DNA of 35,725 nucleotides from Treponema sp. UBA3813 (lineage in GTDB: Bacteria; Spirochaetota; Spirochaetia; Treponematales; Treponemataceae): assembly GCA_002368605.1 (NCBI GenBank), contig DFEB01000048.1, positions 1-35,725 on the forward strand, given 5' to 3'. The position numbers and the translations under genes were made by a program. Below, one piece after another: positions 734 to 34,460 of this stretch. Under the pieces are notes generated by a model, which made no database searches, had not been told where the DNA came from, and worked only from the letters and a program-made list of their open reading frames with translations. Numbering within the stretch: position 1 is the first letter of the stretch; every line of letters begins with the position of its first letter.

Positions 734-740
734 CTTAAAT

Positions 741-763: not shown

Positions 764-779
764 GCTTTGAAAATAAAAA

Positions 780-807
780 GGGCTGTCTTTTTAGGCAGTC
801 CTTTTTT
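780..807 (+). terminator. Intrinsic terminator between rplI and dnaB
   Basis: An 8-bp stem with two G-U pairs (GGGCTGTC 780-787 with GGCAGTCC 794-801) is followed by six T (802-807). It should end the rplI transcript. The dnaB SD begins 9 nt later, so some read-through into dnaB is plausible. Confidence 0.75.
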
Positions 808-828
808 GTCATACGAAGGGAGAAAATC

Positions 829-4097: not shown

Positions 4098-4123
4098 TAA
4101 ATCCTCCTTTAAAGAACAGAAAA

Positions 4124-4132
4124 AGTATATCA
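4124..4132 (-). promoter_or_regulatory. Extended -10 promoter of the P83-like gene
   Basis: On the minus strand the sequence reads TGATATACT, i.e. TGn immediately before TATACT (4129-4124), an extended -10 element. No good -35 is visible. The predicted start near 4117 gives a leader of about 20 nt that contains the strong SD AAAGGAGG. Confidence 0.55.
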
Positions 4133-4176
4133 CATATTTAAGGCAAATGCCACAAATTGATTAGGGTATATGAAAA

Positions 4177-13099: not shown

Positions 13100-16000
13100 A
13101 TGAATAAAAAATCATTCGCGCCGCAAATGTTTTCTACGCTGTTTTTCTCCATCGTCCTCTTTGTGTCTTTGTTTCTTTCATGCAACATGGATGTCGGCTT
13201 AGGCGAGGAAGTCGATCTTGAAGCCCCTGTAATATCCGTACGCTCACTCGTTTCATCCACGACAGAACTGGACTCAACAGAATTGACGGGTGCAATTTTT
13301 GTTAAAAAGAACATCACCATCAAAGGAACGGCCACGGACAACAAAAAAGTTGAATCCGTTCAAATCTGGACTAAATACTCAAACGAGACCTCATACTCAC
13401 ACCTTACGAATGCCTCTCTGTCTGGAACAGAGTGGAAAGCCGATATCAGTTTTCCAAAAGAAGGCGCTGTTTTCGTCCGCTTTTTGGCGGTAGATGGAAG
13501 CGACAACTCTTCTCCAAAATCTTCCCGCGTAATCACGCTTTTCGTCGATGAGACAGCCCCTGTCGCCTCGGCATGGTACATTGACCGCGAAATCAACGGC
13601 ATTCAGTACAATCTTCGCGACCTTGAAACCCTCAAAGAGCTAGACCTCAATGCCACCGAAAACAAGGATGCCGCGCAAAACGAGCAGTTCAAGATTTCTG
13701 CCACGGTCACAGAAGCAATGGGCATACAGTTCGTAAAAATGAAGATTCTCGACGAAGAGGGTAATCTGATTCTTACAAAAGAAAAAACCGATGACTCAAG
13801 TTTATATGCGCCTGTATTTGAGGTAAAAAAGTCAGAGCTCATTGCAGGAAAATCTGCGCTTTCAAGCGGGGCTTACACAAGCGACGGAAAGGCCGCATCT
13901 CACTTCCTCCATGTCATTTATGACTCAGCAGATGTCACAAATCCAACAAACGAAGTTGAAAATGCAGAAATTGACGGCGGATACTTTATCTGGCTTCCTG
14001 AAAACGACATTCCAAGAATAAGCATTTCAGATTTATCGGCAAATGATAATAATGACGGCACAATCAACCTGCATGTAAAAGACTCCCTCAGTATCACGAT
14101 TTTCGATGACGATGCCCTGGCCAGCGCAAAATGTACCCTGAGCGGCACAGGCTATACGACTACAACAAAAAACTGGACAGCTACAAACAACGAGCGGGAG
14201 ACGGTAATGGCACTCTCAATGCCTGAAACTCCGACAACGCTCACCCTTAAAGTTGAGGCAGCTGCGGCCACATGTAACACCCAAAATTCCTCAAGCAAAA
14301 ATGTTACAAAAACCTATACCGTAAATGTCACAGACGATTCAACTCCGCTACTGCTTATCTCAGAGCCATCTAACAATACTACGCCGGCAGTTTCTATGTC
14401 TTTGGACAACTCTAGTGCCACTGTCACGGTAAAAGGCCAGTCTTATGACACGGCAGGCTGTAACTATCTGCTGTTCGTATGGGTTCCAGATTCTCTCCAA
14501 AGCTCAAGCAAACTCACCACGGCAAGCAACTATCTCAACAGCCTTACATCGTATCCGGCGGCAAATTCTTCTCCGACAACAATTTCAAGCGGGGATTATG
14601 CAGGTCTTAAAGTGTGGAGCGTTACTCTCAAATCGGAAACCATTGAAAGTGGATTTAAAAAACAAGATTTCGACTTCACTTTTGACTTAATGAGTGATTT
14701 CACCTGCAACGGCACTAACGAAAAAGCAAATAGCAAATACTTCCTGGCCCGCCTTGTGCGAACAGATGGCAAATACTCTGACAACGAGTACACTCTCACC
14801 GCTGATGATTTGCTTCCGACTATCGTGGGCATTACTCCAAGTCAGGACATGCAGATTCAAGAAGTAGGCTCTGACCTAGTCCTTGAATTCTACGGAAAAA
14901 AAGACTCTGGTCTTGCAATGGATTCAAGCAAATACAAAATCGAACTTGTCGGCTACAAAGACGAGGTTGAAGACAGCAAGCCTGTCCCATATACCGAAGG
15001 CGGGAAAGCCAAAAATTATGAGCTTTCTGGAGAATACAAGACAGGCATTGCCGATTCATCTATGAAAACATATCAGGCAACAATCTCTAAAGACTTCCTC
15101 GTCGCATGTAATAATGAAGGCGTCAAGCCGAAATTCCAATTCTATGCCACGGACTTATTCGGCAACGAGGGAACTGCTCAATACACGGTCGTGCTCTCAA
15201 GCCTTCCACAGCTCAAGTCACTCTCTTCAACCTCATCAACAATCCGAAAGCTGGGGGATGAAATCATCATTTATGCTTCTTTCAGTGACACGGTAAGCGT
15301 GGCGAACGGCAGCAAGGCTTACATCAAGCTTGCGGGAATCAGCGGAAGCGCGACAAACAGAGACAAGGCTTTCTACAAAGAAGGCTCTGGCTCAACAACA
15401 TTACAGTTCAGCTACACTGTACAGGAAGGAGACTCTTCTTCTTGTCTCTATATCAACAACTCCACAGGAACGCCTATCGTAGTAAACGGTGACACGACTC
15501 TTTCAAATGGCGCTCATTTGGATACGCTTGACTCAACAGTATACCCTCATACGGAAACTATCAAACCAAGTAACAAGACAATCCAAATTGACGGAACTCC
15601 GCCAAGCGTATCAAGTATTACATTTACAAGCACGGCAGATTCTACAAAGAACAAAGACACAAATGGTGTAACATGGCTCAATGAAGGAAAAACGCTCACG
15701 GCAACGATTAAAATGAGCGAAGCCGTACAGATTCAAGGAAGCCCGAAATTTATAATCAAAGTCGGCTCAACTGAAATGTACCTTCCTTTTGCAAGCAAAA
15801 ACGACAGCGAAAAGACCATTACATTCCAAAAGAAAATCTCATCAGAGGACGCTGATCCAGAAGGAGAAATCACCTACATTCCGTCAAAGTGTATTAAAAA
15901 CGGTACTAGCGGAGAAAATAACAGTGCCGAAATCGTAGACAGTTTTGGAAATGTCCTCACCCTAAATGCAAGCACGGTATCGAAAAAAGCAAACTTTGGA

Positions 16001-18586
16001 ATCGATACGACGCCGCCAGTAAGTCCAACAGTTACGATTAAAGACGCAAGCTCAGGCTCGACTGTTTCTTCCACAAAATACAACAAGCCGGTTCTTGTAA
16101 TCGTGAGCGATGCAAATGAAAAGTCTACGGAATTCTCAAAAGATGCAGGAAGTTCTTGGGATGAATACAAAAACGACGGAAGTACAAACGGAATCAATAC
16201 TGCCGGCGCATACACCATTACGGCACGCCGAACCGATTGGGCGGGAAATATCTCTGACTACGCAGATCCGATTTCGCTTGACATCAATACAAATTTCCCA
16301 AGCTTCACCGTAGAGTGCCAGAGCGCGGACGGCAACTACAAGGCTGGAAAGACGCTCACTTTTAAAGTGCAGTTCGCAAACAAGGTTAAAGTCACTGGCG
16401 AAGGCGCCTACATTCAGATGAGTAAATTCTATGATACAGACACCGTAGGAACTGGTGCAAACGACGGTAAAGCTCTTCTTACAGGAACTGGAAGTTCAAA
16501 ATCAACAATAACACTCAACACAGAAATTGACTCAGCGACATTCGTTTACGAAGTTCAAGACCCTGATGAGTTCACTCTCAAAATCGAACAGGACGGAGTA
16601 AAACTCAATGGCTTTGAGGACAGCTACGGAATCGCATGGGACGAAAGCTCGAAACTTGCTGCCTCATATCCACGAAGCGCAATCCATTGTGACGGAGTAG
16701 CTCCAAAAGTCGTGAGCATGACACCAAGCGGAACGAAAACTAGTGCAAGCGATGGACTTTCTGTTTACGCGCAGGGCAATGTAATTAAACTCGTATTCAG
16801 TGAGGAAATCCAGAAGGCAAGCGGAAATTTAATATTGCGGCAGGTTAAACTCTGGCCACTTCCACCGGTTTTGAGCGCAACGGACTTCAATACAATCTGC
16901 AATGAGCTTGACTCTGACGGAAAAGAATACCTTGCAATGCGAGACTCTGACGGAAGCTACCTTGAGGACGCACAGCCAGATATCGGTTTGACAAATGCTA
17001 TGGTTCCTGTCCTTGATTTATATCACGGAAGAGGGCAGTATGTCGGACCCTACAAAAAATCAATGCAAGGAATAAAACTGGGTACGAGCAACACCTATGT
17101 TCCAGATACGGAAACTAAATTCGTGCTTGACTTTGACATCGATATTTGGGAAACAGATAAAGAGCATTATTTCGGAAAAACATATACGACATACACTCAA
17201 TCTGATTTCAACAAAAACACAGCCTTCCAGAACGGCAGGCTTAAAATAACAGAGCCAAACAGTTCTTCAAACGGCTCTCTGCGTACTGCACAAGGAATCC
17301 GCGATGTGCTTGAGAAGGCTGGTTACCATGAGCGAGTTCTTGATGTCACATCTGCAAGCGTTGTTTTAGGCTCTGACAACAAGACTGTCACAATTACATT
17401 CCCCCAAGGTCTCTGCGACACTAGTGCTGATTTACCTTACGGCCGTGAATGGGAACTTGTCATCGAAAAAGGCGCCTTCATGGATGCAACAGGAAACGAA
17501 TTCGGTGCAGAAGCAAACGGTACGATAGCAAAAGCAGATGCAGTTCAGGCGTCAGACGGAAGCAAAAAACAGCTTACTGTCGGAACAAGCGTTTCAAGTG
17601 AGTATGGCACTTATTCAGGCGCGTGGGGAAGGGCAAGAGCTTTAATCACTGACGGCTCAAATCCTCTAGTCCTTATTCAGGACGGAACTAAAGACTCATT
17701 CTACTCAGACAAGGTCGCCTCTCCTGTCGTCCGCGTTGACCGCTACAGCTACGGATTTGGAATTTATCAGAGTGATTCCAGCGGAAACAAAGCTAGCATT
17801 ATCGCCGATAAGGAAAGCACAATAAACGGAACGAAAATCGCAAACGGCGTGACTTACGCCGATGCCGTGAAGCCGACGGGCTATGTGCGCACCCGTATCG
17901 ACTGTGAGACAAAAAATTCCCTTGTGTCATACACAAAGGCAACGGCTTCATATTCAACAAGCTCAACTCGCACGGAAACATATAATCCTAACGGCAACAA
18001 TTATCCTCTTGTAGAACTTTATGAGCCCACAAATCCCTCATCACTGACAAGTTTCTCTGGGTATACCACTGAGACCGTTTCTGATAAGAGCAATGTGAGC
18101 CTGATTTTCGCGGGCGGAAATGGAAAATACAATGAAGCCTGCAAGCAGTTTATTGTCGCAACAGCTACTCGGACTGGATTTACATCTTCTAATACAGGAG
18201 CTGAGGGAATCTGGCAGACAGTCGTGTGCTATAACCCTCCAAAGAAAAGCGGAATTAACGGAGAAGGAGTCGCTTCGAATCGTGAAGGTTACAGGAATTA
18301 CTATATCCGAGGAACAACAGGCTTTGGCGGTGAGCCTTATATCTCACCCTTCCCACTTCGCGGAGGATTGCTTGGAACGCCTTATGTGCGCGCGACTTAC
18401 CGTGAGAATAACGGAACTACAACCACAACACCATATTATTGGGTAAGCTATGAAGTGCTTGTCGAGTCTTCATTCCTAGGAAGAGGAAGTCCTGGAACAG
18501 GATGGACATGGAACAGCAATGGATGTGATCAGGGCAAGATGGAACCTGGTGCTCTTTCTGTTATTACAGGAATGTATCTGTACTAA
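13100..18586 (+). CDS. Giant Ig-like repeat lipoprotein, gene A of copy 1 (A1)
   Basis: 1828 aa. The lipobox ends FLSC with Cys28 as the predicted lipidation site, followed by GLGEEVDLEAP. Modules, approximate residues: Ig-like 41-154; YIDREINGIQYNL at 159; FIWLPEND near 295; ITIFDDD near 332; SwmB-type Ig-like modules at 717-780, 859-914 and 1079-1174; a chitobiase-C-terminal/FN3-like module (995-1064, FSKDAGSSW); an SbsA-like module with insertion (1201-1474, PPVLSATDF); a second such FN3-like module near 1595 (YVRTRIDCE); and a C-terminal PFPL domain (1731-1828). No enzyme motif is seen. The ATG has SD AGAGG; an in-frame GTG at 13094 overlaps it. Gene B1 follows after 21 nt, so the two are surely co-transcribed. 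Likely a surface or periplasmic binding protein (inference). Confidence 0.85.
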   Translation: MNKKSFAPQMFSTLFFSIVLFVSLFLSCNMDVGLGEEVDLEAPVISVRSLVSSTTELDSTELTGAIFVKKNITIKGTATDNKKVESVQIWTKYSNETSYSHLTNASLSGTEWKADISFPKEGAVFVRFLAVDGSDNSSPKSSRVITLFVDETAPVASAWYIDREINGIQYNLRDLETLKELDLNATENKDAAQNEQFKISATVTEAMGIQFVKMKILDEEGNLILTKEKTDDSSLYAPVFEVKKSELIAGKSALSSGAYTSDGKAASHFLHVIYDSADVTNPTNEVENAEIDGGYFIWLPENDIPRISISDLSANDNNDGTINLHVKDSLSITIFDDDALASAKCTLSGTGYTTTTKNWTATNNERETVMALSMPETPTTLTLKVEAAAATCNTQNSSSKNVTKTYTVNVTDDSTPLLLISEPSNNTTPAVSMSLDNSSATVTVKGQSYDTAGCNYLLFVWVPDSLQSSSKLTTASNYLNSLTSYPAANSSPTTISSGDYAGLKVWSVTLKSETIESGFKKQDFDFTFDLMSDFTCNGTNEKANSKYFLARLVRTDGKYSDNEYTLTADDLLPTIVGITPSQDMQIQEVGSDLVLEFYGKKDSGLAMDSSKYKIELVGYKDEVEDSKPVPYTEGGKAKNYELSGEYKTGIADSSMKTYQATISKDFLVACNNEGVKPKFQFYATDLFGNEGTAQYTVVLSSLPQLKSLSSTSSTIRKLGDEIIIYASFSDTVSVANGSKAYIKLAGISGSATNRDKAFYKEGSGSTTLQFSYTVQEGDSSSCLYINNSTGTPIVVNGDTTLSNGAHLDTLDSTVYPHTETIKPSNKTIQIDGTPPSVSSITFTSTADSTKNKDTNGVTWLNEGKTLTATIKMSEAVQIQGSPKFIIKVGSTEMYLPFASKNDSEKTITFQKKISSEDADPEGEITYIPSKCIKNGTSGENNSAEIVDSFGNVLTLNASTVSKKANFGIDTTPPVSPTVTIKDASSGSTVSSTKYNKPVLVIVSDANEKSTEFSKDAGSSWDEYKNDGSTNGINTAGAYTITARRTDWAGNISDYADPISLDINTNFPSFTVECQSADGNYKAGKTLTFKVQFANKVKVTGEGAYIQMSKFYDTDTVGTGANDGKALLTGTGSSKSTITLNTEIDSATFVYEVQDPDEFTLKIEQDGVKLNGFEDSYGIAWDESSKLAASYPRSAIHCDGVAPKVVSMTPSGTKTSASDGLSVYAQGNVIKLVFSEEIQKASGNLILRQVKLWPLPPVLSATDFNTICNELDSDGKEYLAMRDSDGSYLEDAQPDIGLTNAMVPVLDLYHGRGQYVGPYKKSMQGIKLGTSNTYVPDTETKFVLDFDIDIWETDKEHYFGKTYTTYTQSDFNKNTAFQNGRLKITEPNSSSNGSLRTAQGIRDVLEKAGYHERVLDVTSASVVLGSDNKTVTITFPQGLCDTSADLPYGREWELVIEKGAFMDATGNEFGAEANGTIAKADAVQASDGSKKQLTVGTSVSSEYGTYSGAWGRARALITDGSNPLVLIQDGTKDSFYSDKVASPVVRVDRYSYGFGIYQSDSSGNKASIIADKESTINGTKIANGVTYADAVKPTGYVRTRIDCETKNSLVSYTKATASYSTSSTRTETYNPNGNNYPLVELYEPTNPSSLTSFSGYTTETVSDKSNVSLIFAGGNGKYNEACKQFIVATATRTGFTSSNTGAEGIWQTVVCYNPPKKSGINGEGVASNREGYRNYYIRGTTGFGGEPYISPFPLRGGLLGTPYVRATYRENNGTTTTTPYYWVSYEVLVESSFLGRGSPGTGWTWNSNGCDQGKMEPGALSVITGMYLY

Positions 18587-18607
18587 GGCGAAGAGGAGAA
18601 CAGAATT

Positions 18608-21600
18608 ATGAAAAAAGTATGTATTATCAAAAAAATCACGAATCTCGCTCTTTTTGCCTTGATTGGACTTATCGCTTCTTGTGGCGAAAACTCAGGCTTG
18701 GGTGAGGCCGTTGACCTTACGGCTCCTATCGTTACGCTCACTTCTCACAACGACAATGACAGCGTTGCTTCGACTTTCACGCTCAAGGGAACGGTCTGGG
18801 ACAATGAAGCTGTCAGAAGCCTTGCTATAGACTTTGAAGACGCTGATATTCACTACTCAATAACCCCCGGCAATTCATGGCAGAAAAAATCAAAAGAGAC
18901 GGGTGGCGTATGGACCGCCATGGACGACTCAAAGGCAAAATGCATCAAATCAGGGGATACTTGGTCATGGTCGATTTATATTGATACCACAAGTGACAAA
19001 AAGGATGGCTTTACAGACACAACATATACGATGAGCGCAGTCGCGGTTGACTCAAGTGGCAACTCTGGAAAAAACTCAAAGGTTGATTGTTCTCTCATCG
19101 TTGATGAAAATGATCCAAATGTCACGATTAATAAGCCTGATATTTTTACGGACTATGCCAATATCTCTTCAAAAAGCACAAATTACAAACTTCAAGACGG
19201 TAACAGCCTCGCACGGCTTATGAACGGCGATGTCACATTCTCTATTCAGCAGGGAGGTGCAATTTCCTTCAAGGAACTCCGGGTTGAATTTGATAACGGC
19301 ACGACCGAATGGGAAAAACATACGGCAGACGACCTGACAGCTTACACTGACACAGAAAGCATTGCGAATGCCATAACAGGCGATGCGCTACCACCGACAG
19401 TCTATTACACAAAAACTCTTAAAGTAAACGAAAACGGAATCACGGACCTGAGAGCCGTTGACCTCACTGTAAAAGCAAGCGAATGGGCATCGAGTGAAAA
19501 GGGTAAAACTAACGGTCTCGACACAGGAATGCACATTATCCGAATTGTTACCACGAGCCTTAGCCCATCAAACGCATGGCAGCGGAAAGTTGTCGGCTAC
19601 TTTGTCTGGTGGCCGGAAGCTGACACGCCTTGGGTAACGGTTTATCAGGGTGATGACAGCGATAAAGGAAATGATGCCAGCGAAGTCTATCCAGGCTCGA
19701 ACATATCTGGAAGCGCACAGGACGATGACGGAATCAAAAGCCTCACTTACACGCTCAAAAAGAAAACGACCGAAAACAATGAGGATACATGGAAGGCCGA
19801 AAAAGAAAATATAAGCCTATCTCTGTCTGAAGTCGGCGGAAAATATTCAGCATGGTCTCTTGTGGCCCCGACTCTCAACGGAAATTACTGCCTTTCTGTC
19901 ACTGTCACGGATATTTACGGCACATCATCTACAACGACAAAATACTTCAAGACACTCGACATCAAGCCGCCTACAATTGAATTTGATCCTTCTTCGGCAC
20001 AGAACGCTTCTTCTGCGCTCACATCAAATCATAAAATCACATTCTCAGGTCTGGTTGCCGATGACGGAGACATCGATTCGCTCAAAGTTGTCTATTTGAA
20101 TCCAAATCTTTCAAATGACGCAACGAATAAAATCAAGTACATGAGCGGAACCGACACAGACTGGGACGACATCACTAGCGGAAACAAAGACGACTCAGGC
20201 AATATCGTCTATGACCTCACCACAAGCTTAAAATCTAAGGGAAACAGCAGCGGCAAGAGCTACTCATTCTCAAAGACATTCGATGTTTTCGAAGATCTTG
20301 GAATTGACGGAGAAACAAAAACGCTCACTGCTCAGGATTTTGTTTTCAGAGTCGTGGACAAAGGCGGCACAAAGACTGTCAAAATGATTTCCCTTACAGG
20401 CGACAGCACAGCCCCAAGCCTAACATTTGACAAAATCGTTTTGGAGAACGGCGGAACAAGCCTTACCTACGATTTAACAAATGAAATTCCAAACCTTCCT
20501 GTCATTAAGTCGGGAGCAAAAGCCACATTGTCAGGAACATGGGGCGACAACTCATTTGACACATGGAAAGATACAAGCAAAATCGGAAAAATTTCTGTCA
20601 CCTGGAACGGAAGTGATAAGGTCACCGTCACGCCGAATGCAAACCGAAGCTGGAGTGCAAGTGTAAGCGATGTTCCAAGCGACTCTGGAACAATCAAAAT
20701 CAGCCTCTCTGATTTCGGCGGAAACACAAAAGCCGTTACAAAATCCGTGTTCATCGAGTCCAACACAACGAAACTTGAGCGAATCGGCTCTGATTCAGAC
20801 GACGGCTCATATAAAAAAGACTCTGAAATTCTCATAACTCTTGAATTCACCAAGAACACGACATGGATCGGAAGCGAGCCAAGCCTTACCCTCAACAATG
20901 GCGGTGTAGCAAGCTTTGATAGCGGAAAAGACACTGCAAAACATATCTTCAAATATACGGTTAAGGGAAATGAGAGCGAAAGCACTGAGCAGCTGTTTGT
21001 CAAAACAATCAATCAGGCGGGAACGACATGGACAGAAGCTTCAGGAGCAACATTCACTGTTGAAATACCTGAAGATACAAAAACTCTCAAAACAAGAAAT
21101 ATCAAAGTTGATACAAAAGCTCCGACCATCAGCTCTATCACAGCGATTACTCCTGCAGGCGCATACAAGGCCAATAGCGACATCATAATAATGATGGAAT
21201 TCAGCGAAGATGTAAGCGTAGTGACTTCAAGCGGAGTGCTTAAAGACAAGCTCAAGATTAACTTCAAAGATTCTCTTAATACGACCGATGCAAGCGCAAG
21301 CGGCTCAAAATTCGTCATCTTCACTTACACAGTAGGTGAGAACGACAATTCTTCAAAACTCGAATATTACAGCATTGAACATGATGACGTCACTATCACC
21401 GATGAGGCAGGAAATGAACTTACATCTTGGAAGCCAGAGTCTACCTTCAACAAGGCAATTGTAATCGACACAAAGAAACCTAATCCTCCGACAGTCAATC
21501 CCGCATGGGGAAGCGCGCAAGTCGTCATAAGCGAAAGCGGAAGTTCATTTACAATTTCAAGTGATGAGTCAGACACAACAATTGAATATACTCTTGACGG

Positions 21601-23560: not shown

Positions 23561-23582
23561 AATCTCATCTAAAAGAGAGTTT

Positions 23583-23619
23583 TCCCCTAAAGGCATTGCG
23601 CTTTTAGGGGATTTTTTTT
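23583..23619 (+). terminator. Terminator of lipoprotein operon copy 1
   Basis: A 12-bp stem with one G-U pair (TCCCCTAAAGGC 23583-23594 with 23600-23611), loop ATTGC, then eight T (23612-23619). It is almost identical to the terminator at 34375-34411, including the preceding AAAAGAGAGTTT. Confidence 0.93.
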
Positions 23620-23757
23620 GGAGTTTTTAGAGTTTATGAAGGAGGCTGTGACAAAAAAATGCAAAAAAAAGTATATAAATTCTTAAAAAATATTTAGTTA
23701 TTTATGAAAACCATTTAAAATAAGACTAAATTAATCTGAAAAAAGTTTGAGGATTCT
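23620..23757 (+). promoter_or_regulatory. Upstream region and promoter of lipoprotein gene A2
   Basis: No gene. Two A-tracts (A7 23653-23659, A8 23663-23670) precede GTATATAAA. The promoter candidate is TTTAGT (23693-23698), 17 bp, TAAAAT (23716-23721), giving a leader of about 30 nt with SD GAGG. This mirrors the A1 upstream region. Copy 2 therefore probably has its own promoter. Confidence 0.5.
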
Positions 23758-26700
23758 ATGAATAAAAGTATGGGGCAAGTCGCTCGTAATTTCAGTATAA
23801 TTTTGTTTTTTTCCGTTTTTTGCTTTTTTTCATGCAATATGGATGTCGGCTTAGGCGAGGAAGTCGATATCGTTGCTCCTAAAGTATCCATAGTTTCCAT
23901 GAGTTCTGAAAATGAAAGCACATATTCTTTTGCAGGAGGAGTCTTCTGCCACCGCGAAGTAGCTTTCACAGGAACAGCAAGCGACAACAAAAAAGTCACG
24001 AGCGTACATGTCCAGATTAAATGGGCAGATGAAACATCCTTCAAAGAGTTTAAGACGGCGAGTCTTTCTGGTGAGAACTGGTCGTTAGGCTTTACATTCG
24101 AAAAAGAGGGTACGGCATTTCTAAAGTTCATAGCAGAAGATGCTCAGGGAAATCAAGGGGCGCGCTCTTCAAAAACAATAATCCTCTTTGTTGATGAGAA
24201 AGCACCAATTGGTAATGCGTGGTACATTGACCGGAAAATCAACGGAATACAGTACAACCTTCATTCTCTCGAAGAACTGAAATCCATTGACCTCAACAAA
24301 TCTGAGAACATAGACGCCGCTCAGAATGTAGCATTTGCAATCAGTGCAAACTTCAATGATACAATGGGTATCGATGACAAGAATCCGCCGAAAATCTCGA
24401 TTTATGATGAGGATGGAATCCAAGTCTGTGAGATTTCAAAAACCAATGACAGCACCGTATATGCGCCTGTTTATGAGATTACCGAAGCAATCCTTAAAAG
24501 TGGAAAAGACGGTCTTAAAACGGGAAAGCATTATCTTCAGGTTCGCTACACTGCGAGCGATATCGTCACGACTCCGGCGGCAAACAAAATCTCTTATGAT
24601 GAAACTAATAGCGATGACACATGGTTCATTTGGTATCCAGAGGCAGACAAACCCCGATATGAGCTTTCTACGGAAATCTCAGAAAACGCAATCACTGCTT
24701 ATGTAAATGATGTCATCAGTATCACGATTTTTGACGATGATGAGTTGGATTCAGCAAGCTATTCATTCGCTTATAAAGACCAAGACGGAAATTCAAAGAC
24801 AAGTTCTGACATTGCAAGTATCAGTAGCGGAGAACGCGAAAAAACCCTCATTGTAAAAATGCCCTCAACTCCGCAAACAGCAAGCCTTACAATACAAGGC
24901 AAGGGCAAAAAAGGCGAAACTGACGGCGGAGAAGCAATTAACGAAACAATTACAGTTAATGTCATTGACGAGTCAAGTCCTATGCTTCTTATCACATCGC
25001 CAAAGAACAATTCAGTACCAGCAGTCTCAATGACAGGCTCAACAAATGCAAAAGTCACAATCGAAGGTCAGGCACTCGATGCTTCCGGCTGTGACTATCT
25101 TGAATTCGTCTGGGTTCCAGATTCAATCGCCCAAACAGCAACAGAAAAATCAGCAATAGCAAAAGATTTCCTCTCAAGCCTGAACACTGTCGAAAAGCAC
25201 AATAAGTACAGAACGGCAGGTAGCCTCAAAAAGACGGAAATAAACGAGGTGGGAGTTCTTTGGTCAGTTCCTCTCACAAAAACAGGAAGCACTGCAGGTT
25301 TCATAACGCAGACATTCAGTTTTGAAGTTGACTTGTTCACCGACTTCATGAGCGAAAACAAACAGGCAAGTGATAAATATTTTGTTGCCCGCCTGACCAG
25401 GGGAGCAAACACCGGAGTCTTTTCTGAATACAGGCTCGCTGGAGACACATCAAATCCAACCATTACGCCAATTTCTCCAAGCGGAGATATGGCAATCATT
25501 TCGGCAAGCGAAGCCCTTGTTCTTGAATTCAAAGGTACAAAAACAAGCGGAATCGGAATGGATTCAAGCGCCTATGAAATTCGCCGCGTAGACTCAAACG
25601 CAAATGACGGAATGTTTGGCACATACGACTCATCACTTGGTTATGCAAGAGTAACGGGAAGCTATGATGAGGCAACAGAAACATTTAAGTCCCAAGCTAT
25701 TTCCACGGATACGCTTCAGGCTTGGAAAGAAAAGGGCGTAAAACCAAAATTCCAGTTCTTTGCAAAGGATTTGTTCGGTAACGAAGGAAAAGACCAGTTT
25801 ACGGTCGTAATCAGCACGCTTCCACTTTTAAAGAGCATAACATCTCCGTCATCAACACTCAGTAAGATGGGTGATGAAATTCTGATTAACGCAGTCTTTG
25901 ACAACACAGTCACCGTATCTGATACAAGCTCAATGTATGTAAAACTCTCCGGAATAAATAATTCTGACACTTCAGTCGTAACGAACAAGGCATATTACAA
26001 AACAGGCTCCGGCTCAACAACGCTGGTATTTGTCTATAAGGTAAATGAAGGCGATTCTTCTGACAAACTTTGTGTCGTTAATGACAGCGGAAGCCCGATT
26101 GCAGGACTTTCATCATCTGTCGCGACCTTGGTAGATAGCAACGGAAATTCCACCGTCACAGCTGAAAACCTTCTTCAAAACAAAAAAACTATCAAGATTG
26201 ACGGAATTTCTCCAAAAATCAGCAGCGCAACGATAGAAACCGACATTGATTCTTCGGAAATTGCAAATTACCAGAACAACGGAAGCACTTATCTCAAAGA
26301 GGGCAGAACTTTATCCGTAAAAATCACAACCTCGGAAGCAGTGCAGATTCAGGGTTCTCCGGCATTTGTCTTTAATGTCGGCTCTCAGTCGGTCTCACTG
26401 CCCTTCGTAGGACAGAGCGGAAATACTATCACATTCAGCAAAAAAATCACATCAGATACAGATGAAAATCCTAACGGACCGCTTTATTATATCCCGAACG
26501 ACTGCATAACGGCTTACAATACCATTGTCGATGCAGCAGGAAACAAACTTGTCCTGAACAGTGGCACAAACTCTAAAAGTGCAAATATCGTAATCGACAC
26601 AATAAAGCCAGCCACCCCGACGGTAAATGTCACTGACTCAAAAGGAAATAAAGTTACTGGCGGAAAAGTCGCCAACTATGCGAATTTCTATGTATCTCTT

Positions 26701-29397
26701 CTCGATGATGAGCTCAAAAAAACCGAATACTCAACGGACGGCGGAAGTTCTTGGCCAACGGATAACATAATCTCAGAAGGTGCGGGAAACACAGTCAAAC
26801 TCACATCTTCTTGTGAGCTCACCGCGCGCCGAACAGACTATGCCGGAAATATTTCAGATTACTCTGACATAATCAGCCTTGAAATCAACAGCACATTCCC
26901 GCATTACGATATAGAATGCGTGAATCCAGACGGAAATTATGCCGCCGGAAGGAAACTTGTCTTTAAGGTAACATTTGACGAAAAAGTCTCTTTCAAAGAG
27001 GACTCAATTTCATCGGCATATATTCTCGTAAGCGGTCACAGCGGAGAATCATACGCACAGGGAAAAAATTCAGGAAAGGCATATCTTTCAAACAAAAACG
27101 GCATCAAGCTTACGGAAGCACAGGAAAAAATAGATTTTGTTTACTTCGCTTATGAAGTTCAGGATCCGGACGAATTTACTCTCAAAGTAAACAAAGGAGA
27201 TGTCTTCCTTGAAGGATTCAGCGACATGTACGGAATAGAGCAGGGAAGCAAAACACTTGACGATGACTACGACCGAACTTCAATTAAATGTGACGGCGTT
27301 GCCCCGAAAGTCGTTAAAATGGCTCCGGACGGAGCTACAGCAAGTGCAAATGTCTACTCAAACGGCAGAAAAATCGTGCTTACCTTCAATGAAAATGTCA
27401 GCCGTGCAAACGGTAATATCATCATCCGCCGTATAGCGAACTGGGCAATTCCACCTGTCCTTACGGCAAGTGAATTCAGCACGATTACAAAGGCACTCAC
27501 CAGCGAACAAAAAGAAATTCTCTCACGGCAGGAAAAGGGAATCGACATGGAAGATTCGGAGAGTCTTTATCCGGGAGTAAGCGGATCCGCAAACATTTAT
27601 TATCACGGAACAGGCCAGTTTGTCGGTCCTTACAAAAAATCAACTCAGGGCATTAACACCTCCACAGGTCTTCCAGATACCAGCACAAAATATGTCCTTG
27701 ACTTCGATATTGGTATCCGCGAAAAAGATGAAGTCACCCATCATATCGGAAAGACTTTCCGCACGACCGGCAGTGGCTCGTCATACACAGAAAACCCAGC
27801 CCCCAAAACCCCGAATGACACTGGCAATGAACGAACAGGAAGCCAAATTCGGGCGACGCTTGAGGCAGCACATTACCATGAGAGAATCGTCGATGTCACA
27901 TCAAAATATGTAAGCATAAACGGAAAAACCGTTACAATCGATTTTCCTGATGGCTTAGTCGGAGACAGCAATTTGCCAGCCGGAAGGAAATGGGAACTTG
28001 TCATTGAAAAAGGCGCTTTCATGGACTCAACGGGAAACTACTTCGGTGCCGAAGCTGACGGAAGATGGGACACAATCCTTGCGGATGCAGTTCAAGAGTG
28101 CAATGGAACGACATGCACGCAGTATACAATCGGCTCAGAATTTGAAAACACTTATGACAAATATCCAAGCTCATCATGGGAGAGGGCACGAGACTCTATC
28201 AGCGACGGCTCTTCGCCTGTCGTTCTCATCAAGAACGGCTCTAACGAATATTTCTGGTCCAGCGGGGTAGCGACTCCGGTAATCCGAGTTGACAGATATT
28301 CTTACGGCTTCGGAGTTTATCAGGTTGATTCAAACGGCCAAAAAGAAAGTACATACATTAGCGATGACAAGATAAAGCCGACAGCCTATGTGCGTGTGCG
28401 AATTGACTGCGAAAGCGACGGAGCTGAAGTTACCTATGGCTCATCAATGGTTGAGGCAGGGGAAAGCAATGCGACAGTCGATTATCCAACTGCAGCGGAC
28501 TGTACAAGTACGACTTCAGAAACAGCAAATCCTTCAATTACAGGCATCAGCACAAGCAAATCCTACAGCGAAGGAACATTCTTTGCAGGAGGTAACGGAA
28601 ACTACCAAAAAGCCTGCAAACAGTTCTTTAAGGCAAGCGCAAGCATAAACGGAGCGACGGCAACGGGTTATGAAGGCGTTTTCCAGACTGTCGTGCAGTT
28701 CTTCGCACCCTATGGAAACACAGGTCAAGCCGGCGCACAAGAAGAAGGCCATAATCACTTCTCAATCCGAGGAACCACCGGCTGGGCAGGCGAGCCTTAT
28801 ATCGCTCCGTTCCCGCTCCGTGACAATCAGCTAGGCTCTCCCTACCTCAAGAGATGCTATAGGGAAGATTTTGTTGAAGCCAAGCCAATTAATTTTAATG
28901 ATTACGGTTATATAAAAACAATTACAAAAGATATTCAGGCTCGACCTGCTAATTGGTGGGGTGCAACACAAATCCTTACAGCAGATGAAATTTCTGAAGC
29001 AACAAGTTTAAGCGTAAAATTTACTAAATGTGATAACAACTTTGGTTTAAAAGGCAGTGAAAACACGGATAAAAAAGCATGGTGTACAGATTATAACAAC
29101 TTTTCAACAGAGACACCGCTTTCTAATGATGTCTTTGCTGAAGCAAAAAATAATGGTCTCTATATAGAAAGTGGATATACAGACTACACTGTCGAAATAA
29201 AGCTTTATTCAAAATTACTGCCAGAAATTGATGCAGGCCATTACGACTACTACTGGTGCTCATACGAAATTCTTGTGAATTCATCGTTTTCGGGTCATAG
29301 TTGGGGTAGCGGAGGTCATTACAACTGGTGTTGTAATTGGGGCTGGATGATTCCTGGCGAATACAGCCGCGCTGTCAAAATGAGGAACTGGGAATAA
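23758..29397 (+). CDS. Giant Ig-like repeat lipoprotein, gene A of copy 2 (A2)
   Basis: 1879 aa, paralogue of A1. The lipobox ends FFSC (Cys26), followed by GLGEEVDIVAP. The same landmarks follow in the same order: YIDRKINGIQYNL, FIWYPEAD, ITIFDDDEL, SwmB-type modules with GSGSTTLVFVYKVNEGD and GSPAFVFNVGS, an FN3-like module with EYSTDGGSSW, QDPDEFTLKV, the SbsA-like module with PPVLTASEF, RVDRYSYGFGVYQ, and a C-terminal GEPYIAPFPLR (PFPL from residue 1684). It differs from A1 by about 125 extra codons near the C-terminus (28870-29244). The tail is Trp/Cys-rich (YNWCCNWGWMIPGE). SD GAGG precedes the ATG. B2 follows after 20 nt. Confidence 0.85.
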   Translation: MNKSMGQVARNFSIILFFSVFCFFSCNMDVGLGEEVDIVAPKVSIVSMSSENESTYSFAGGVFCHREVAFTGTASDNKKVTSVHVQIKWADETSFKEFKTASLSGENWSLGFTFEKEGTAFLKFIAEDAQGNQGARSSKTIILFVDEKAPIGNAWYIDRKINGIQYNLHSLEELKSIDLNKSENIDAAQNVAFAISANFNDTMGIDDKNPPKISIYDEDGIQVCEISKTNDSTVYAPVYEITEAILKSGKDGLKTGKHYLQVRYTASDIVTTPAANKISYDETNSDDTWFIWYPEADKPRYELSTEISENAITAYVNDVISITIFDDDELDSASYSFAYKDQDGNSKTSSDIASISSGEREKTLIVKMPSTPQTASLTIQGKGKKGETDGGEAINETITVNVIDESSPMLLITSPKNNSVPAVSMTGSTNAKVTIEGQALDASGCDYLEFVWVPDSIAQTATEKSAIAKDFLSSLNTVEKHNKYRTAGSLKKTEINEVGVLWSVPLTKTGSTAGFITQTFSFEVDLFTDFMSENKQASDKYFVARLTRGANTGVFSEYRLAGDTSNPTITPISPSGDMAIISASEALVLEFKGTKTSGIGMDSSAYEIRRVDSNANDGMFGTYDSSLGYARVTGSYDEATETFKSQAISTDTLQAWKEKGVKPKFQFFAKDLFGNEGKDQFTVVISTLPLLKSITSPSSTLSKMGDEILINAVFDNTVTVSDTSSMYVKLSGINNSDTSVVTNKAYYKTGSGSTTLVFVYKVNEGDSSDKLCVVNDSGSPIAGLSSSVATLVDSNGNSTVTAENLLQNKKTIKIDGISPKISSATIETDIDSSEIANYQNNGSTYLKEGRTLSVKITTSEAVQIQGSPAFVFNVGSQSVSLPFVGQSGNTITFSKKITSDTDENPNGPLYYIPNDCITAYNTIVDAAGNKLVLNSGTNSKSANIVIDTIKPATPTVNVTDSKGNKVTGGKVANYANFYVSLLDDELKKTEYSTDGGSSWPTDNIISEGAGNTVKLTSSCELTARRTDYAGNISDYSDIISLEINSTFPHYDIECVNPDGNYAAGRKLVFKVTFDEKVSFKEDSISSAYILVSGHSGESYAQGKNSGKAYLSNKNGIKLTEAQEKIDFVYFAYEVQDPDEFTLKVNKGDVFLEGFSDMYGIEQGSKTLDDDYDRTSIKCDGVAPKVVKMAPDGATASANVYSNGRKIVLTFNENVSRANGNIIIRRIANWAIPPVLTASEFSTITKALTSEQKEILSRQEKGIDMEDSESLYPGVSGSANIYYHGTGQFVGPYKKSTQGINTSTGLPDTSTKYVLDFDIGIREKDEVTHHIGKTFRTTGSGSSYTENPAPKTPNDTGNERTGSQIRATLEAAHYHERIVDVTSKYVSINGKTVTIDFPDGLVGDSNLPAGRKWELVIEKGAFMDSTGNYFGAEADGRWDTILADAVQECNGTTCTQYTIGSEFENTYDKYPSSSWERARDSISDGSSPVVLIKNGSNEYFWSSGVATPVIRVDRYSYGFGVYQVDSNGQKESTYISDDKIKPTAYVRVRIDCESDGAEVTYGSSMVEAGESNATVDYPTAADCTSTTSETANPSITGISTSKSYSEGTFFAGGNGNYQKACKQFFKASASINGATATGYEGVFQTVVQFFAPYGNTGQAGAQEEGHNHFSIRGTTGWAGEPYIAPFPLRDNQLGSPYLKRCYREDFVEAKPINFNDYGYIKTITKDIQARPANWWGATQILTADEISEATSLSVKFTKCDNNFGLKGSENTDKKAWCTDYNNFSTETPLSNDVFAEAKNNGLYIESGYTDYTVEIKLYSKLLPEIDAGHYDYYWCSYEILVNSSFSGHSWGSGGHYNWCCNWGWMIPGEYSRAVKMRNWE
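28870..29244 (+). other. Extra ~125-codon segment in A2, absent from A1
   Basis: A1 passes from YREN through a Thr-rich stretch of about eight residues to YYWVSYE. A2 has YRED, then about 125 codons, then YYWCSYE. The segment is visibly richer in A+T than the flanks, with more TTT, TTA and AAT codons. It encodes a Trp-containing, beta-looking stretch (PANWWGATQIL, LSVKF, YTVEIKLYS). It looks like a domain inserted into, or deleted from, one paralogue. Confidence 0.7.
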
Positions 29398-29417
29398 TCA
29401 CAAAAAAGAGGAAAAAC

Positions 29418-32400
29418 ATGAAAAAAGTTTCTATAATTAAAAAATTAACGAATCTCGCTCTTTTGACTTTAACAGGAGCATTGTTTTTCTCATGTGGAGA
29501 CAGCACTGGCTTGGGAGAGGCCGTTGACCTTACGGCTCCTGTCGTAACGCTTACTTCTCATTCAGACGATGACACCGTAGCCAACGAATTCACGCTGGCA
29601 GGAACTGCATACGATAACGAAAAACTCGCCCTTATCACGATTGATTTTGAAGACGCAGACATACATTATAGCGTAACTCCCGGCAGCGTATGGAAAAAGA
29701 AAACATCAACCACAGACTGGACGGAGCTTTCTTCCACCGAGGCTGGATGCTCGCTTTCAGGAGACACATGGCATTGGAATGTACTTGTAAAAACCGATGA
29801 CAAAAAAAGCACTAAAACAGACTACACCTATGAGCTTAGTATTATCGCAGAAGATGCAAACGGGAATTCAGGCAGAAACTCTAAAGTAGAATGTACGCTC
29901 ACCGTTGACACCAAAAATCCAGATGTCTCAATCACCAAGCCTGATCTTTTTAAAACACCACACTCAGATGCAAAAACAAAGGCAGAATCATACAATCTCA
30001 AAGATGGAAATGTTATCGCAAGGCTTCTAAACGGTGACATATATTTTTCTGGCAGACAGTCAGATTCTATTTCCTTCAGAGAATTGCTTATTGAATTTGA
30101 CGCAGGAGAGCTTTCCGCAAACACGGCAATCGTAACTGACTTAGCAAAATATCCGGAACTCTCAAATCCGAAAGCTCAGGAAGTAAGTGACACCGTAAAA
30201 TTTGAGGGTGAAAGTGAAAAACCGAAAGTCTATTACTCTAAACTCATTAAAGAAAATTCCCGCTCATGGGAATTCACGGTGGCGGCAGGCGAATGGGTAA
30301 GCGAGACAAAAAATTCAGACCTTATGACAGGAAGACACTTAATCCGCGTAGTTTCAACGAGCGTGAGCAATTCTGGAGCATGGCAGAAAAAAATTCTCGG
30401 TTATTTTATCTGGTGGCCGGAAGCTGATATGCCATGGCTTATCACATATCTCGGTGATGAAACAGATAAAGGAAGTTCCGCCTACGAAGTCTATCCGTCT
30501 TCAAGTTTCACAGGACAGGCACAGGACGATGACGGAATAAAAAAACTCACATATACGATTCAGAAAAAAAATGGCGATGTTTTTGAAAATTACTCCTCTG
30601 GAAAACTCGGTCTCTCAGAAGACGGCGCTAAATATGCCCCTTGGAGCGTTACAACTCCGTCAGAAAACGGCAATTTCAAACTTATAGTAGATGTTGAGGA
30701 TTTGAACGGAAACAAAGACACCCTTGAGCGATATTTCAAAACACTTGATGTTTCTCCGCCAAAAATTGAAATCACCTCTCCAGAAAGCAGTTCTTCTGTT
30801 TTGGCAAATTCAGATGCCACAATCAAATTCAAAGGAAATGTCTCTGACGACGGGCTTGTAAGTTCTTTATGTATCGCTTTCCTTAATCCTGCAAAAAGCG
30901 ACGATGCAGCAAACAAAATCGCCTATATGAACGGCAGCGCAGAGACTGCGCCATGGGCACAGGCGACTGAATCGGGTTATACAGACTCTATTGGAAATAA
31001 AATTTACAAAATCACGCTGGGAAGTCCAGACTCTTCAAGCGGAAGAAATGTCTATACCTTCTCAAAGACCTTTAATATTTTCTCCAATCTCGGCATAGAC
31101 GGCACGACAAAGACACTTGATGCCCTTGACTTTGTCTTCCGTGCAGAAGATTCTGGAAGCAATACCGTTCAGGTATTCTCTCTCACTGGAGACACTGAAG
31201 TTCCAGAACTTACAATCGAAAAACTCGTCTTAAAAAATGGTTCAACAGTCGCAAAAGATGTAAGTTTCACTGGAGACGATACGCCGACACTTCCAGTCAT
31301 AAAACCAAGCCATACAGCAACAATTTCAGGAAAATGGAGCGACAATTCTACAAGCAAATGGACAAGCACATATAAATCAAAGATAGGCGACATCAAGCTT
31401 ACATGGGCCAACAATGAAATCAGCGCGACACGAAAGAATGACGGAACATGGACGGCAGAAGTTTCAAATTCGCTTCTTCCGATAACAAGCGGTTTGATAC
31501 AGGCAAGCATAAAAGACTATGCCGGAAACACGAAAACCACAAGCCGTTCAGTCTTCATTGAAAGCGCAGAAGCTGGTCTTGAAAGCATTGGCTCAGATTC
31601 TGATGACGGATTCTATTCTAAAGGAAATTCTATTCTCATTACCCTTGAATTCACAAAAGCAACTACTCTAAGTCAAGGAGCAAATCCACCGACACTCACG
31701 CTAAACAACGGCGGAGAGGCGATTTATAATTCAGGAAGTGGTACTTCAAAGCATGTATATAAATATACCGTAGGTGAAAGCGACACGAGTGTTGAAAAAC
31801 TCGATGTCACGGCAATAAAAAAGAACGGAGCGGTATGGAAAGATTCTTCGACTGAAGAAACAATAGAAGTTTCTCTTCCTGCGGCAGGAAATAGAATCGG
31901 CAATACGCGAAACATCACCATCGATACGGAAGCGCCGAAAATTGAGTCGGTGACTGCACTCTCAAGTTCCGGTTATTATAAAGAAGGCGCATCAATTCTT
32001 CTTATGCTGACTTTCTCTGAAAGCGTATCTATTGAAAATGCTTCAAATCTTGAGCTTTCATTCACGCACAATTCCGCAAAGACATCGGGAGTTTCTGCAA
32101 GCTCAAAGAATGCGATTTTCACATACACTGTTGCCGACGGTCAAAACACGGATGAGCTAAAGCTTCAGAGTCTGTCGCACGATTCCGTAATCATAAAAGA
32201 TGAGGCGGGAAATACTCTTGAAAATTGGACTCTCCCGAATACAACACTGACCAACAAAATCGTAATCGACACGATGGCTCCAGACGCCCCAGAAGTCAGT
32301 GTCGGCTGGAGCAAGCCCGTAATATTTGAGGCAACGAATTTCAGCATTACAGGTGAGACAGGAGCAACAATCGAATACTCTACCGACAACGGCTCTTCTT

Positions 32401-34358
32401 GGATGAGCTATAAGGGAACAGAAATTTCTCTTACAAACAACGGAACTTACAATGTAACGGCCCGTCAGACAGACAAAGCGGGAAATGTTTCCCCAAATGC
32501 GACCGTCCAAACAGTTACGATTGATAAAGGCGAACTCTTAAGCAAAATCACCGCAAAAACGGTTTCTGGTTCATACTCAACAAATACAAGCACAAAAATC
32601 ATAGAAGGACTTATCAATTTCAGAAAAGAAGTCAAAATAGCAAGCGGTGCAAAAGTCACATTAAATGTCGGCAACAAAAATGATGGCACGACATCAAGAG
32701 AAGTTCAAATCACCACTGCTGGTACAAGCGTAAAACAACACAAATTCGAATATGAAATAAAAGAAGGTGACTACATCAATTCAAGTGATGGAAAACTCGA
32801 TGTAACAGATTGGACAGTAAATTCTGTTGAAATCACAGCTGATGCAGGAACTGTAACAGCGGATGTCTCTCTTCCGGTAACAGGAGATGGAACAGAAAAA
32901 GCATTTGCCGACAACCGGGAAATTTATATTCTCACAGGAAAGCCTGAAATTAATAGTGTTTCCTTAACAGGAAAGGGAAGCGATGCTGTTTTAAAAATAA
33001 CCTTTGACCGTGAAATCAGTAAAATGAGCGGGGAAATTGTATTTACTCACGACGAAGATTCCTACCGTGCTCCGTCAGTGCTGAGCGTGAGCGAATTCAA
33101 CGAGCTCAAAAACAAGCTTTCATCTTACTACACAAAAGGCATGAACGGTGCCGTAAAAAATGGCAACTACCTTGAAAATGACACAACAACGAAGTATGTT
33201 CTTAACTTTGAGAATGAAAACACAAAGACAGAAATTACGAAGATTTTCAAAGACGCAGAGAAACACATTGTAAGGATTCCGATAGTCTCAAGCGCAGTGA
33301 GCGTGGAGGATGAAAAAGTCCTTACCGTTAAACTTGGAAGCACATACCAGCTTCCTGTAAAAGGCTCAACTTATAAGCTCCTTATCCCTGCAGCTGCTGT
33401 TACGGATGCATGTCAAAACAAAAACACTGAGTATGAGACAGACGGAACAACAAGCAAGCCTCACTTAGTCGCAGAGGGAATAGAAGATCCTGTAATAAGA
33501 ATCAACAAAAAAGGGCAGACTATCACAAGTTCCGGAGTCACAGCGACTTCGAGCGTAGAGATGCCGACTTCTGCTGGTGTAAAGATTGACTGCCAGACTC
33601 CAGAAACTACTATTTATTATGAAACAAATCAAAATGCCAGTAGTCAAGTTTCGGTCAAAGAATCTCCGAAGTACTATAATACAAAAACAACTGATGCCAC
33701 GATCCCAAATACGATAAATAAAAAATACGAAAATGAGTTTTCTATTGGAGGCGGCACGGCATCCTACGACATGAAGGGACTCAAAATCGCCATTGCCGCA
33801 CGCGCAGAGAAAACTTCTGATTCCAGCGTTAAGAGCGATCCTATCTATGAGTATGCGACAAGAACAGTATTGAAATTTAAAATTGATGGTGCCTATGATA
33901 CAGCTGAAGATAAAGGTCCTAGCTACAAGGAGACTTCGATAAAGGAAAATGGCAATACGCTCAAATACGCAGATTTAAAGGTATGGGTGTTTGGAGGCGA
34001 TGCGCCTTATGGCGGAAATACGCTAGATCCGTTCCCCCTTTCTTGGAACGATAGCAAAAACTTTAAGCTTATGGCAGGTTCTTGGTCTGATACAAGTTCT
34101 GGAAAAATGAACGGTACTTGGTATTGGATTTCCTGGGACATCACAACAAATACATACCATGGATTCGCAATCGGTGATGTTCCAAGCGATGCTAACGAAA
34201 ATGGACCTACGACTTGGTATGTCGGTGAATGTGCGTGGGCTGGACAAAAAATAAACTATATATTGTATCCTGGAGAAACGCTTGAAATGCTTCTTAAATC
34301 GGGAAATAATTATAATACGACATATTACTTCCGTCTAAAGAACGAAGGTTCTAGGTAG
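29418..34358 (+). CDS. Giant Ig-like repeat lipoprotein, gene B of copy 2 (B2)
   Basis: 1646 aa, paralogue of B1. The N-terminus MKKVSIIKKLTNLAL is nearly the same as B1. The lipobox ends LFFSC (Cys26), then GLGEAVDLTAP. It repeats the B1 landmarks: DFEDADIHYS, FIWWPEAD, QAQDDDGIKKLTYT, LGIDGTTKTLDALDFVFR, two SwmB-type modules with TLEFTKATTL and MLTFSESVSI, the FN3-like ATIEYSTDNGSSW, DNREIYILTGKPEI leading to SVLSVSEF, a second FN3-like ETTIYYETN, and a PFPL C-terminal domain (motif at residue 1538). The start at 29418 is set by SD AGAGG (29407-29411); a longer frame from 29337 would overlap A2 by 61 nt. It ends in TAG with a terminator 16 nt later. No catalytic motif is recognised. Confidence 0.85.
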   Translation: MKKVSIIKKLTNLALLTLTGALFFSCGDSTGLGEAVDLTAPVVTLTSHSDDDTVANEFTLAGTAYDNEKLALITIDFEDADIHYSVTPGSVWKKKTSTTDWTELSSTEAGCSLSGDTWHWNVLVKTDDKKSTKTDYTYELSIIAEDANGNSGRNSKVECTLTVDTKNPDVSITKPDLFKTPHSDAKTKAESYNLKDGNVIARLLNGDIYFSGRQSDSISFRELLIEFDAGELSANTAIVTDLAKYPELSNPKAQEVSDTVKFEGESEKPKVYYSKLIKENSRSWEFTVAAGEWVSETKNSDLMTGRHLIRVVSTSVSNSGAWQKKILGYFIWWPEADMPWLITYLGDETDKGSSAYEVYPSSSFTGQAQDDDGIKKLTYTIQKKNGDVFENYSSGKLGLSEDGAKYAPWSVTTPSENGNFKLIVDVEDLNGNKDTLERYFKTLDVSPPKIEITSPESSSSVLANSDATIKFKGNVSDDGLVSSLCIAFLNPAKSDDAANKIAYMNGSAETAPWAQATESGYTDSIGNKIYKITLGSPDSSSGRNVYTFSKTFNIFSNLGIDGTTKTLDALDFVFRAEDSGSNTVQVFSLTGDTEVPELTIEKLVLKNGSTVAKDVSFTGDDTPTLPVIKPSHTATISGKWSDNSTSKWTSTYKSKIGDIKLTWANNEISATRKNDGTWTAEVSNSLLPITSGLIQASIKDYAGNTKTTSRSVFIESAEAGLESIGSDSDDGFYSKGNSILITLEFTKATTLSQGANPPTLTLNNGGEAIYNSGSGTSKHVYKYTVGESDTSVEKLDVTAIKKNGAVWKDSSTEETIEVSLPAAGNRIGNTRNITIDTEAPKIESVTALSSSGYYKEGASILLMLTFSESVSIENASNLELSFTHNSAKTSGVSASSKNAIFTYTVADGQNTDELKLQSLSHDSVIIKDEAGNTLENWTLPNTTLTNKIVIDTMAPDAPEVSVGWSKPVIFEATNFSITGETGATIEYSTDNGSSWMSYKGTEISLTNNGTYNVTARQTDKAGNVSPNATVQTVTIDKGELLSKITAKTVSGSYSTNTSTKIIEGLINFRKEVKIASGAKVTLNVGNKNDGTTSREVQITTAGTSVKQHKFEYEIKEGDYINSSDGKLDVTDWTVNSVEITADAGTVTADVSLPVTGDGTEKAFADNREIYILTGKPEINSVSLTGKGSDAVLKITFDREISKMSGEIVFTHDEDSYRAPSVLSVSEFNELKNKLSSYYTKGMNGAVKNGNYLENDTTTKYVLNFENENTKTEITKIFKDAEKHIVRIPIVSSAVSVEDEKVLTVKLGSTYQLPVKGSTYKLLIPAAAVTDACQNKNTEYETDGTTSKPHLVAEGIEDPVIRINKKGQTITSSGVTATSSVEMPTSAGVKIDCQTPETTIYYETNQNASSQVSVKESPKYYNTKTTDATIPNTINKKYENEFSIGGGTASYDMKGLKIAIAARAEKTSDSSVKSDPIYEYATRTVLKFKIDGAYDTAEDKGPSYKETSIKENGNTLKYADLKVWVFGGDAPYGGNTLDPFPLSWNDSKNFKLMAGSWSDTSSGKMNGTWYWISWDITTNTYHGFAIGDVPSDANENGPTTWYVGECAWAGQKINYILYPGETLEMLLKSGNNYNTTYYFRLKNEGSR

Positions 34359-34374
34359 ACTAAAAGAGAGTTTT

Positions 34375-34411
34375 TCCCCTAAAGGCATTTGGCTTTTAGG
34401 GGATTTTTTTT
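34375..34411 (+). terminator. Terminator of lipoprotein operon copy 2
   Basis: A 12-bp stem with one G-U pair (34375-34386 with 34392-34403), loop ATTTG, eight T (34404-34411). Same stem sequence as the copy 1 terminator. Confidence 0.93.
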
Positions 34412-34460
34412 GCAGCATAGGGACTATGGATGAGACTTCTCGTGTCCAATTTTCTTTTCA

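Follow-up and report, generated by a model that had tools for sequence, protein, structure and literature searches.

The window analysed here, a 35,725-nucleotide stretch of DNA, is one whole contig (C24) of the 2.6 Mb genome of Treponema sp. UBA3813, which is 88.5% complete; its relatives in the named-genome scan described below are Treponema. Four giant lipoprotein genes lie on it as two successive units, each composed of an A gene followed by a B gene (A1-B1 and A2-B2, Table 1). The partners are separated by 21 nt in the first unit and 20 nt in the second, 197 nt lie between the units and a stem-loop terminator closes each of them, confirming the arrangement that an earlier note had read from the DNA, in which four adjacent lipoprotein genes form two terminator-closed A-B units. 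The four frames are not chance products, being very long and having full-length relatives in other genomes. In the open reading frame list A1 starts slightly earlier, at GTG 13094, while the listed TTG frame of B2, from 29337, would overlap A2.

The units are preceded by an H+-pyrophosphatase gene and followed by a methionyl-tRNA synthetase gene. With gene names assigned from Pfam matches, the flanking families comprise rplI, dnaB, P83/100, PQQ, trmA-type, mnmA-type, polyA-polymerase-type, purC, hppA and metG, all housekeeping genes except the P83/100-family and PQQ-type members. The P83/100-family gene carries 21-nt tandem repeats in a stretch rich in Ala, Lys and Glu.

Table 1. Coordinates of the genes, protein regions and loci discussed (window positions unless residues or a locus are given).
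Feature	Position	Strand	Details
A1 giant lipoprotein gene	13100-18586	+	1828 aa, start ATG 13100
B1 giant lipoprotein gene, A paralog	18608-23560	+	1650 aa
Terminator of unit 1	23570-23620	+	12-pair stem, 8 T; ends 23619
A2 giant lipoprotein gene	23758-29397	+	1879 aa
B2 giant lipoprotein gene	29418-34358	+	1646 aa, start ATG 29418
Terminator of unit 2	34360-34412	+	stem-loop and 8 T; ends 34411
A1 repeat-rich middle	aa ~676-1240		profile self-comparison
B1 repeat-rich middle	aa ~705-1204		profile self-comparison
A1 A-type C-terminal head	aa ~1690-1828		
B1 B-type C-terminal head	aa ~1495-1650		
Borrelia P83/100-family gene	2244-4133	-	403 bits
Signal peptidase II (LspA), window genome	G000:C61:79358-79834		PF01252, E 6e-33
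Solo-A loci	L091:638-5296; L102:9977-13879		no B
Further giant GLG lipoprotein genes	L066:17471-19999; L109:21116-24856		downstream of A-B pair, same strand
Match to A N-terminus	G057:C15:100119-100397		inside open frame of 10,197 aa
TPR-rich protein	L138:15693-18587		G102, downstream of A-B pair
Putative barrel proteins	L082:822-6047; L081:12911-18172; L070:13738-19680; L107:2380-6774		
Frame downstream of barrel gene	L128:1-6894		G061; 99 and 63 bits against A and B profiles

Predicted lipid anchor, repeats and C-terminal heads

Each of the four proteins has a signal with a lipobox Cys, read directly as LSC in A1, ASC in B1 and FSC in both A2 and B2; the Cys is followed by NMDVGLGEEVD in the two A proteins, GENSGLGEAVD in B1 and GDSTGLGEAVD in B2. 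A Cys with [GA][LM]G within the next nine residues was found in 21 of the 23 A rows that have an N-terminus (the 24th row is truncated) and in 24 of 25 B rows, the exception (CETPIGLG in L107) missing only the end of the pattern. Signal peptidase II is encoded in the window genome, and PF01252 was matched in 57 of 59 genomes. With a lipobox Cys in all four proteins and the peptidase gene in the genome, A and B have the hallmarks of bacterial lipoproteins. A passage in PMC8049484 says that bovine gut treponemes are without signal peptidase II, a statement that fails for the window genome and for G015, assigned to T. bryantii, as LspA is present in both.

Self-comparison of the family profiles revealed clear internal repeats in the middle third only. 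The C-terminal 140-160 residues form two related yet distinct heads, A-type and B-type. In 97 genomes each head profile found its own type, with weaker cross-matches of the A head to the B proteins of G090, G031 and G015 (E 7e-7 to 0.002) and of the B head to G038 A (E 0.001). Two very short frames, in G008 (43 aa, E 0.006) and G019:C15 (92 aa, E 0.002), also matched and are left out of the head counts below; there were no matches to any further protein. Both head alignments were built without L103 and L105. In B, aromatic residues peak in the last 100 positions, where W, Y and F make up 18-20%; the C-terminal end of A holds 14-16%, a content that is not unique within that protein.

The description of the proteins as Ig-like, made in the earlier note, calls for qualification. 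Big_13 is sub-threshold in B1 (22.9 bits) and B2 (25.8 bits, cut-off 27) and A1 and A2 have no Ig-type Pfam match, but in relatives from the phylum Big_13, Big_5 and CHB_HEX_C-type domains score above their Pfam cut-offs, and L138 A and B, L141 and L144 exceed the Big cut-off. Residues 740-1250 of B1 resemble stretches of plasmid-borne proteins in eight records, six of which are annotated as Ig-like, cadherin-type, autotransporter-associated or DUF4347. These matches are partial, none spanning 80% of B1, and carriage on plasmids was rejected, as was a phage origin (no PHROGs match at E 0.01 for A1 and B1). The A and B profiles found no PDB match below E 0.01. The earlier note had suggested a surface-layer, adhesin or polysaccharide-binding complex as a possible function. 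In the four window proteins no SLH or other S-layer anchoring domain was detected at E 1, and no S-layer or carbohydrate-binding family reached its cut-off (Pfam and NCBIfam).

Several known systems resemble the family in some features and differ in others. Leptospira LigA and LigB are spirochaetal lipoproteins with long Ig-like arrays, and A and B are likewise spirochaetal lipoproteins, with putative Ig-like repeats. Lig-type repeat lipoproteins, however, are defined by tandem Big_2-type repeats, to which the four window proteins gave no Pfam match at E 1, and A and B differ from them in being paired paralogs with a GLG motif and type-specific C-terminal heads. The middle repeats resemble the Ig-like stretches of large Ig-repeat surface proteins such as Salmonella SiiE, although the match to PDB 2yn3, which we take to belong to SiiE, is not significant (E 0.05); A and B differ from SiiE-like proteins in their lipid anchor, and the window flanks are mostly housekeeping, with no secretion gene adjoining. 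Likeness to SusC/SusD, in which one operon encodes a lipoprotein of the outer membrane together with its barrel partner, was seen only in G076 and L107, whereas the four window proteins have no SusD match and no TonB-dependent receptor is found among the flanking genes of the window, which sets them outside that class. The OmpL47-type model NF047446 matches short stretches of A1, B1 and B2 below its curated cut-off (29.3-36.8 bits, cut-off 40), leaving most of each protein unmatched, and does not match A2.

Pairing of A and B

Comparison of the A and B profiles aligned 1429 columns at 22% identity (probability 100, E 1e-136). By this measure A and B are full-length ancient paralogs, which implies that duplication happened twice: first in the distant past, giving rise to A and B, and again later, producing two units. 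The literature search found no paper describing the A-B pair.

A scan of named genomes, anchored on the A alignment and by design blind to B alone, yielded 27 loci. The hosts are T. bryantii (L087), T. ruminis, Candidatus T. merdequi and metagenome assemblies from rumen, omasum, rectum, colon and horse faeces, some without a stated source; Emb289 (L107) is presumably termite-derived. B follows A directly in 24 of the 27 loci; in the remaining three, one contig ends within A and two hold A without B. Within the 24, A occupies more than one frame in three and is cut by the contig in two. Broken A genes are found in the drafts L086, L096 (the same as G002) and L107, and also in G090, a one-contig genome. 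From the other side, 15 genomes, the window genome among them, gave a strong B match, and in 14 of these A stands directly before B; several of the 15 are also in the A-anchored scan. In G093 A is divided between two contigs, and in the fifteenth genome, G007, the contig ends before A. Among 97 genomes, both heads occur in 14, B only in one (the contig end), A only in none and neither in 82 (Fisher p 5e-16, uncorrected for kinship). In both window units the two heads lie in adjacent genes with A first, the order of every Treponema-type pair observed.

In the phylum the B head is present in 15 of 296 genomes, and nine regions were fetched (G134 is not among them). Two of these, G325 and G176, are Treponema pairs already counted in the A scan, and G102 and G235, which belong to a different family within the class, likewise have A before B. 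G191 holds an unequal pair (1333 and 818 aa), G156 a pair of uncertain type and G097 and G111 single proteins rather than pairs, while in G366 the contig ends. The TPR-rich protein of G102 begins in a similar way to the product of the gene that follows the G235 pair, and has a weak, sub-threshold match to the Slam TPR model.

The two As without a partner, the T. ruminis A and the second A of the roe-deer Treponema RGIG4406, form one clade. The former is flanked by the same neighbouring genes as the units of the window. Both have shortened middle regions (163 and 426 aa) and are without the GLG motif after the lipid Cys, a motif kept in all 21 remaining A rows that include an N-terminus. The earlier note had proposed an obligate pair, a view that homologues usually found alone would have refuted. 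Such solitary homologues are confined to two of the 27 A loci, from one clade, no B is clearly alone in the 15 genomes that carry it, and the pairing is strengthened by the adjacent, A-before-B arrangement that the observed Treponema pairs share with two genomes of another family; 'obligate' is nonetheless too strong, because a solo-A lineage exists. In L066 and L109 the A-B pair is followed by a further giant GLG lipoprotein gene. One very long frame in G057 contains a match to the A N-terminus, and other relatives have open frames of about 3000-5600 aa with an A-like N-terminus.

The middle regions of the partners match in length. They are long in both partners in 14 pairs (A 496-613 aa, B 479-528 aa), short in both in three (A 189-201 aa, B 158-185 aa) and long in both in ten further pairs. 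Over the first 17 pairs the A and B lengths correlate with r 0.99, a value in which the long/short contrast represents one phylogenetic switch in one clade rather than 17 separate observations; the 24 long pairs by themselves still give r 0.73, uncorrected for kinship. Outside the middle, and again uncorrected for kinship, the correlation over 17 pairs is 0.49 for the N-terminal and -0.02 for the C-terminal part.

History of the two units

The trees placed A2 with the A, and B2 with the B, of RGIG4406, leaving A1 and B1 outside, and AU tests rejected trees in which the window copies were held together (p 8.8e-7 for A, 0.0017 for B). The expectation that A1/A2 and B1/B2 are each other's closest relatives was thus contradicted, and a recent tandem duplication is ruled out. 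The first trees exclude the A of G002, G007 and G093 and the B of G007, with G090 A entered as its longer piece only; the larger A tree is without the A of L084, L086, L095, L096, L103 and L107 (broken, partial or off-contig) and the larger B tree without the B of L095. For 21 pairs the A and B trees have 15 of 18 splits in common, compared with at most three in label shuffles, and the A-B Mantel r is 0.97, agreement that plain co-inheritance would also produce. As the two topologies agree, the genes appear to have been inherited, or to have moved, as units. The horse MAG Horse_feces302 contains two pairs of different clades (L088 and L104), so multiple pairs per genome are not unique to the window.

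The terminators are near identical over ~50 bp, compared with protein identities of 46% (A1/A2) and 49% (B1/B2), and are far more alike between the window units than with RGIG4406, which has a different sequence at that position. A pattern covering both stems matched twice in the window and in none of 100 shuffles; those are the only two copies across the 2.6 Mb assembly, which rules out membership of a repeat family. Coding DNA identity between the units (0.53 for A, 0.55 for B) does not exceed their identity to RGIG4406 (0.53-0.58), excluding gene conversion along whole genes. In their leaders and A-B junctions the window units align better with each other than with RGIG4406, and they share exact runs of 30 and 24 nt at the GLG motif. 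Since the window also shares exact matches as long as 26 nt with RGIG4406, the terminators are the one striking sign of edge homogenisation. Together the sequence comparisons suggest that the duplication is old, or that unit 1 is mosaic or replaced, rather than that the window carries a fresh tandem copy. The likeness of the terminators runs against a simple old split, and local conversion of the unit edges, or replacement of the interior, is possible.

A proposed paired stalk and its alternatives

The lipobox, the paralogy of A and B, their pairing, the matched change of the spacer and the type-specific heads are features of the sequences themselves. On balance we lean towards the view that A and B are paralogous subunits of one envelope-anchored hetero-oligomeric stalk with a two-part C-terminal head. 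Each chain would be a lipoprotein with a signal, a Cys and a conserved G-L/M-G motif, continuing through an N-terminal third and a spacer of Ig-like β-sandwich repeats to its own type of head. The two would be made from one operon and run side by side, and their contact would force the spacers to match in length. Such an arrangement would demand a change of at least 300 residues in both genes of the same clade, as is observed. The heads would then sit together at the tip of the stalk, presumably at the cell surface, where they might bind, for example, plant fibre, mucin or another microbe. The likeliest use of the stalk is adhesion, whether to fibre, mucin or other cells; no ligand is claimed here. 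The two units of the window genome would be an old set, two variants of one device. Against the stalk model it must be said that the long/short match reflects a single switch, that the co-occurrence and length correlations carry no correction for descent, that A is solitary in two genomes, that some A genes are broken and that the deeper relatives are single or unequal, while a surface location supposes a putative exit of A and B from the periplasm.

A and B could instead be independent surface adhesins of one expanded paralogous family, neighbours through tandem duplication and operon stability, that form no complex. Their paralogy, the existence of solo A and the occurrence of other giant GLG lipoproteins in tandem (G003, G045, G035 and G009) are consistent with this proposal, which we nevertheless consider unlikely in view of the co-occurrence of the type-specific heads in several families, the position of A first in every Treponema-type pair and the alteration of the middle region in both genes of the same clade.

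It is somewhat less probable that the pair is a scaffold in the periplasm or at the inner face of the outer membrane, with a structural role such as sheath spacing, rather than a surface binding device. In Escherichia coli an Asp after the lipid Cys keeps lipoproteins in the inner membrane, and many members have Asp or Glu directly after that residue; the phylum-wide range of the family also suits a scaffold. However, a general structural part would not be expected to be so patchily distributed (the B head is present in 15 of the 97 genomes), and duplicated, divergent variants would better fit ligand-facing proteins.

The least probable proposal adds to A and B an Ig-array protein with a putative outer-membrane barrel, giving a three-part outer-membrane complex. 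Genes for this family (about 1460-2470 aa, Big_7 Ig arrays, matched in 69 of the 97 genomes) lie directly upstream of A in G076 and Treponema Emb289 and, in G035 and G045, of other giant GLG lipoproteins, four cases met via the lipoproteins and hence a biased sample; such a lipoprotein also adjoins the barrel gene in six of 20 further barrel loci. Conversely, none adjoins it directly in the other 14, the barrel is a reading of the C-terminus (which ends in Phe) with no barrel family match, and its presence in 13 of 15 B-holding genomes against 56 of 82 others gives no clear link. There is no barrel match in G007 or in the window assembly, itself 88.5% complete; as the protein was not found in the window genome, it is not required for A-B on present evidence. 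In G061 a barrel gene is followed, after other frames, by one that scores against both the A and the B profile.

The paired stalk may have a wider reach, although we put this forward as a doubtful extension: a phylum-wide device in which co-evolving paralogous lipoproteins form a parallel, length-matched heterodimeric stalk with a two-part head unseen in other proteins of the relatives searched. This would constitute a new class of adhesive or sensing fibre, possibly docking on the Ig-barrel outer-membrane protein in some species.

The guts of animals that feed on fibre commonly harbour treponemes, and the molecules that hold these to fibre or to partner microbes are, to our knowledge, poorly defined. 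A passage in PMC5541161 cites co-culture work in which T. bryantii raised the degradation of straw by two cellulolytic partners, although it 'is not capable of degrading ...'. This species carries one A-B pair. The paired, length-matched lipoprotein family is a concrete candidate for the contacts of treponemes with fibre or with other microbes.
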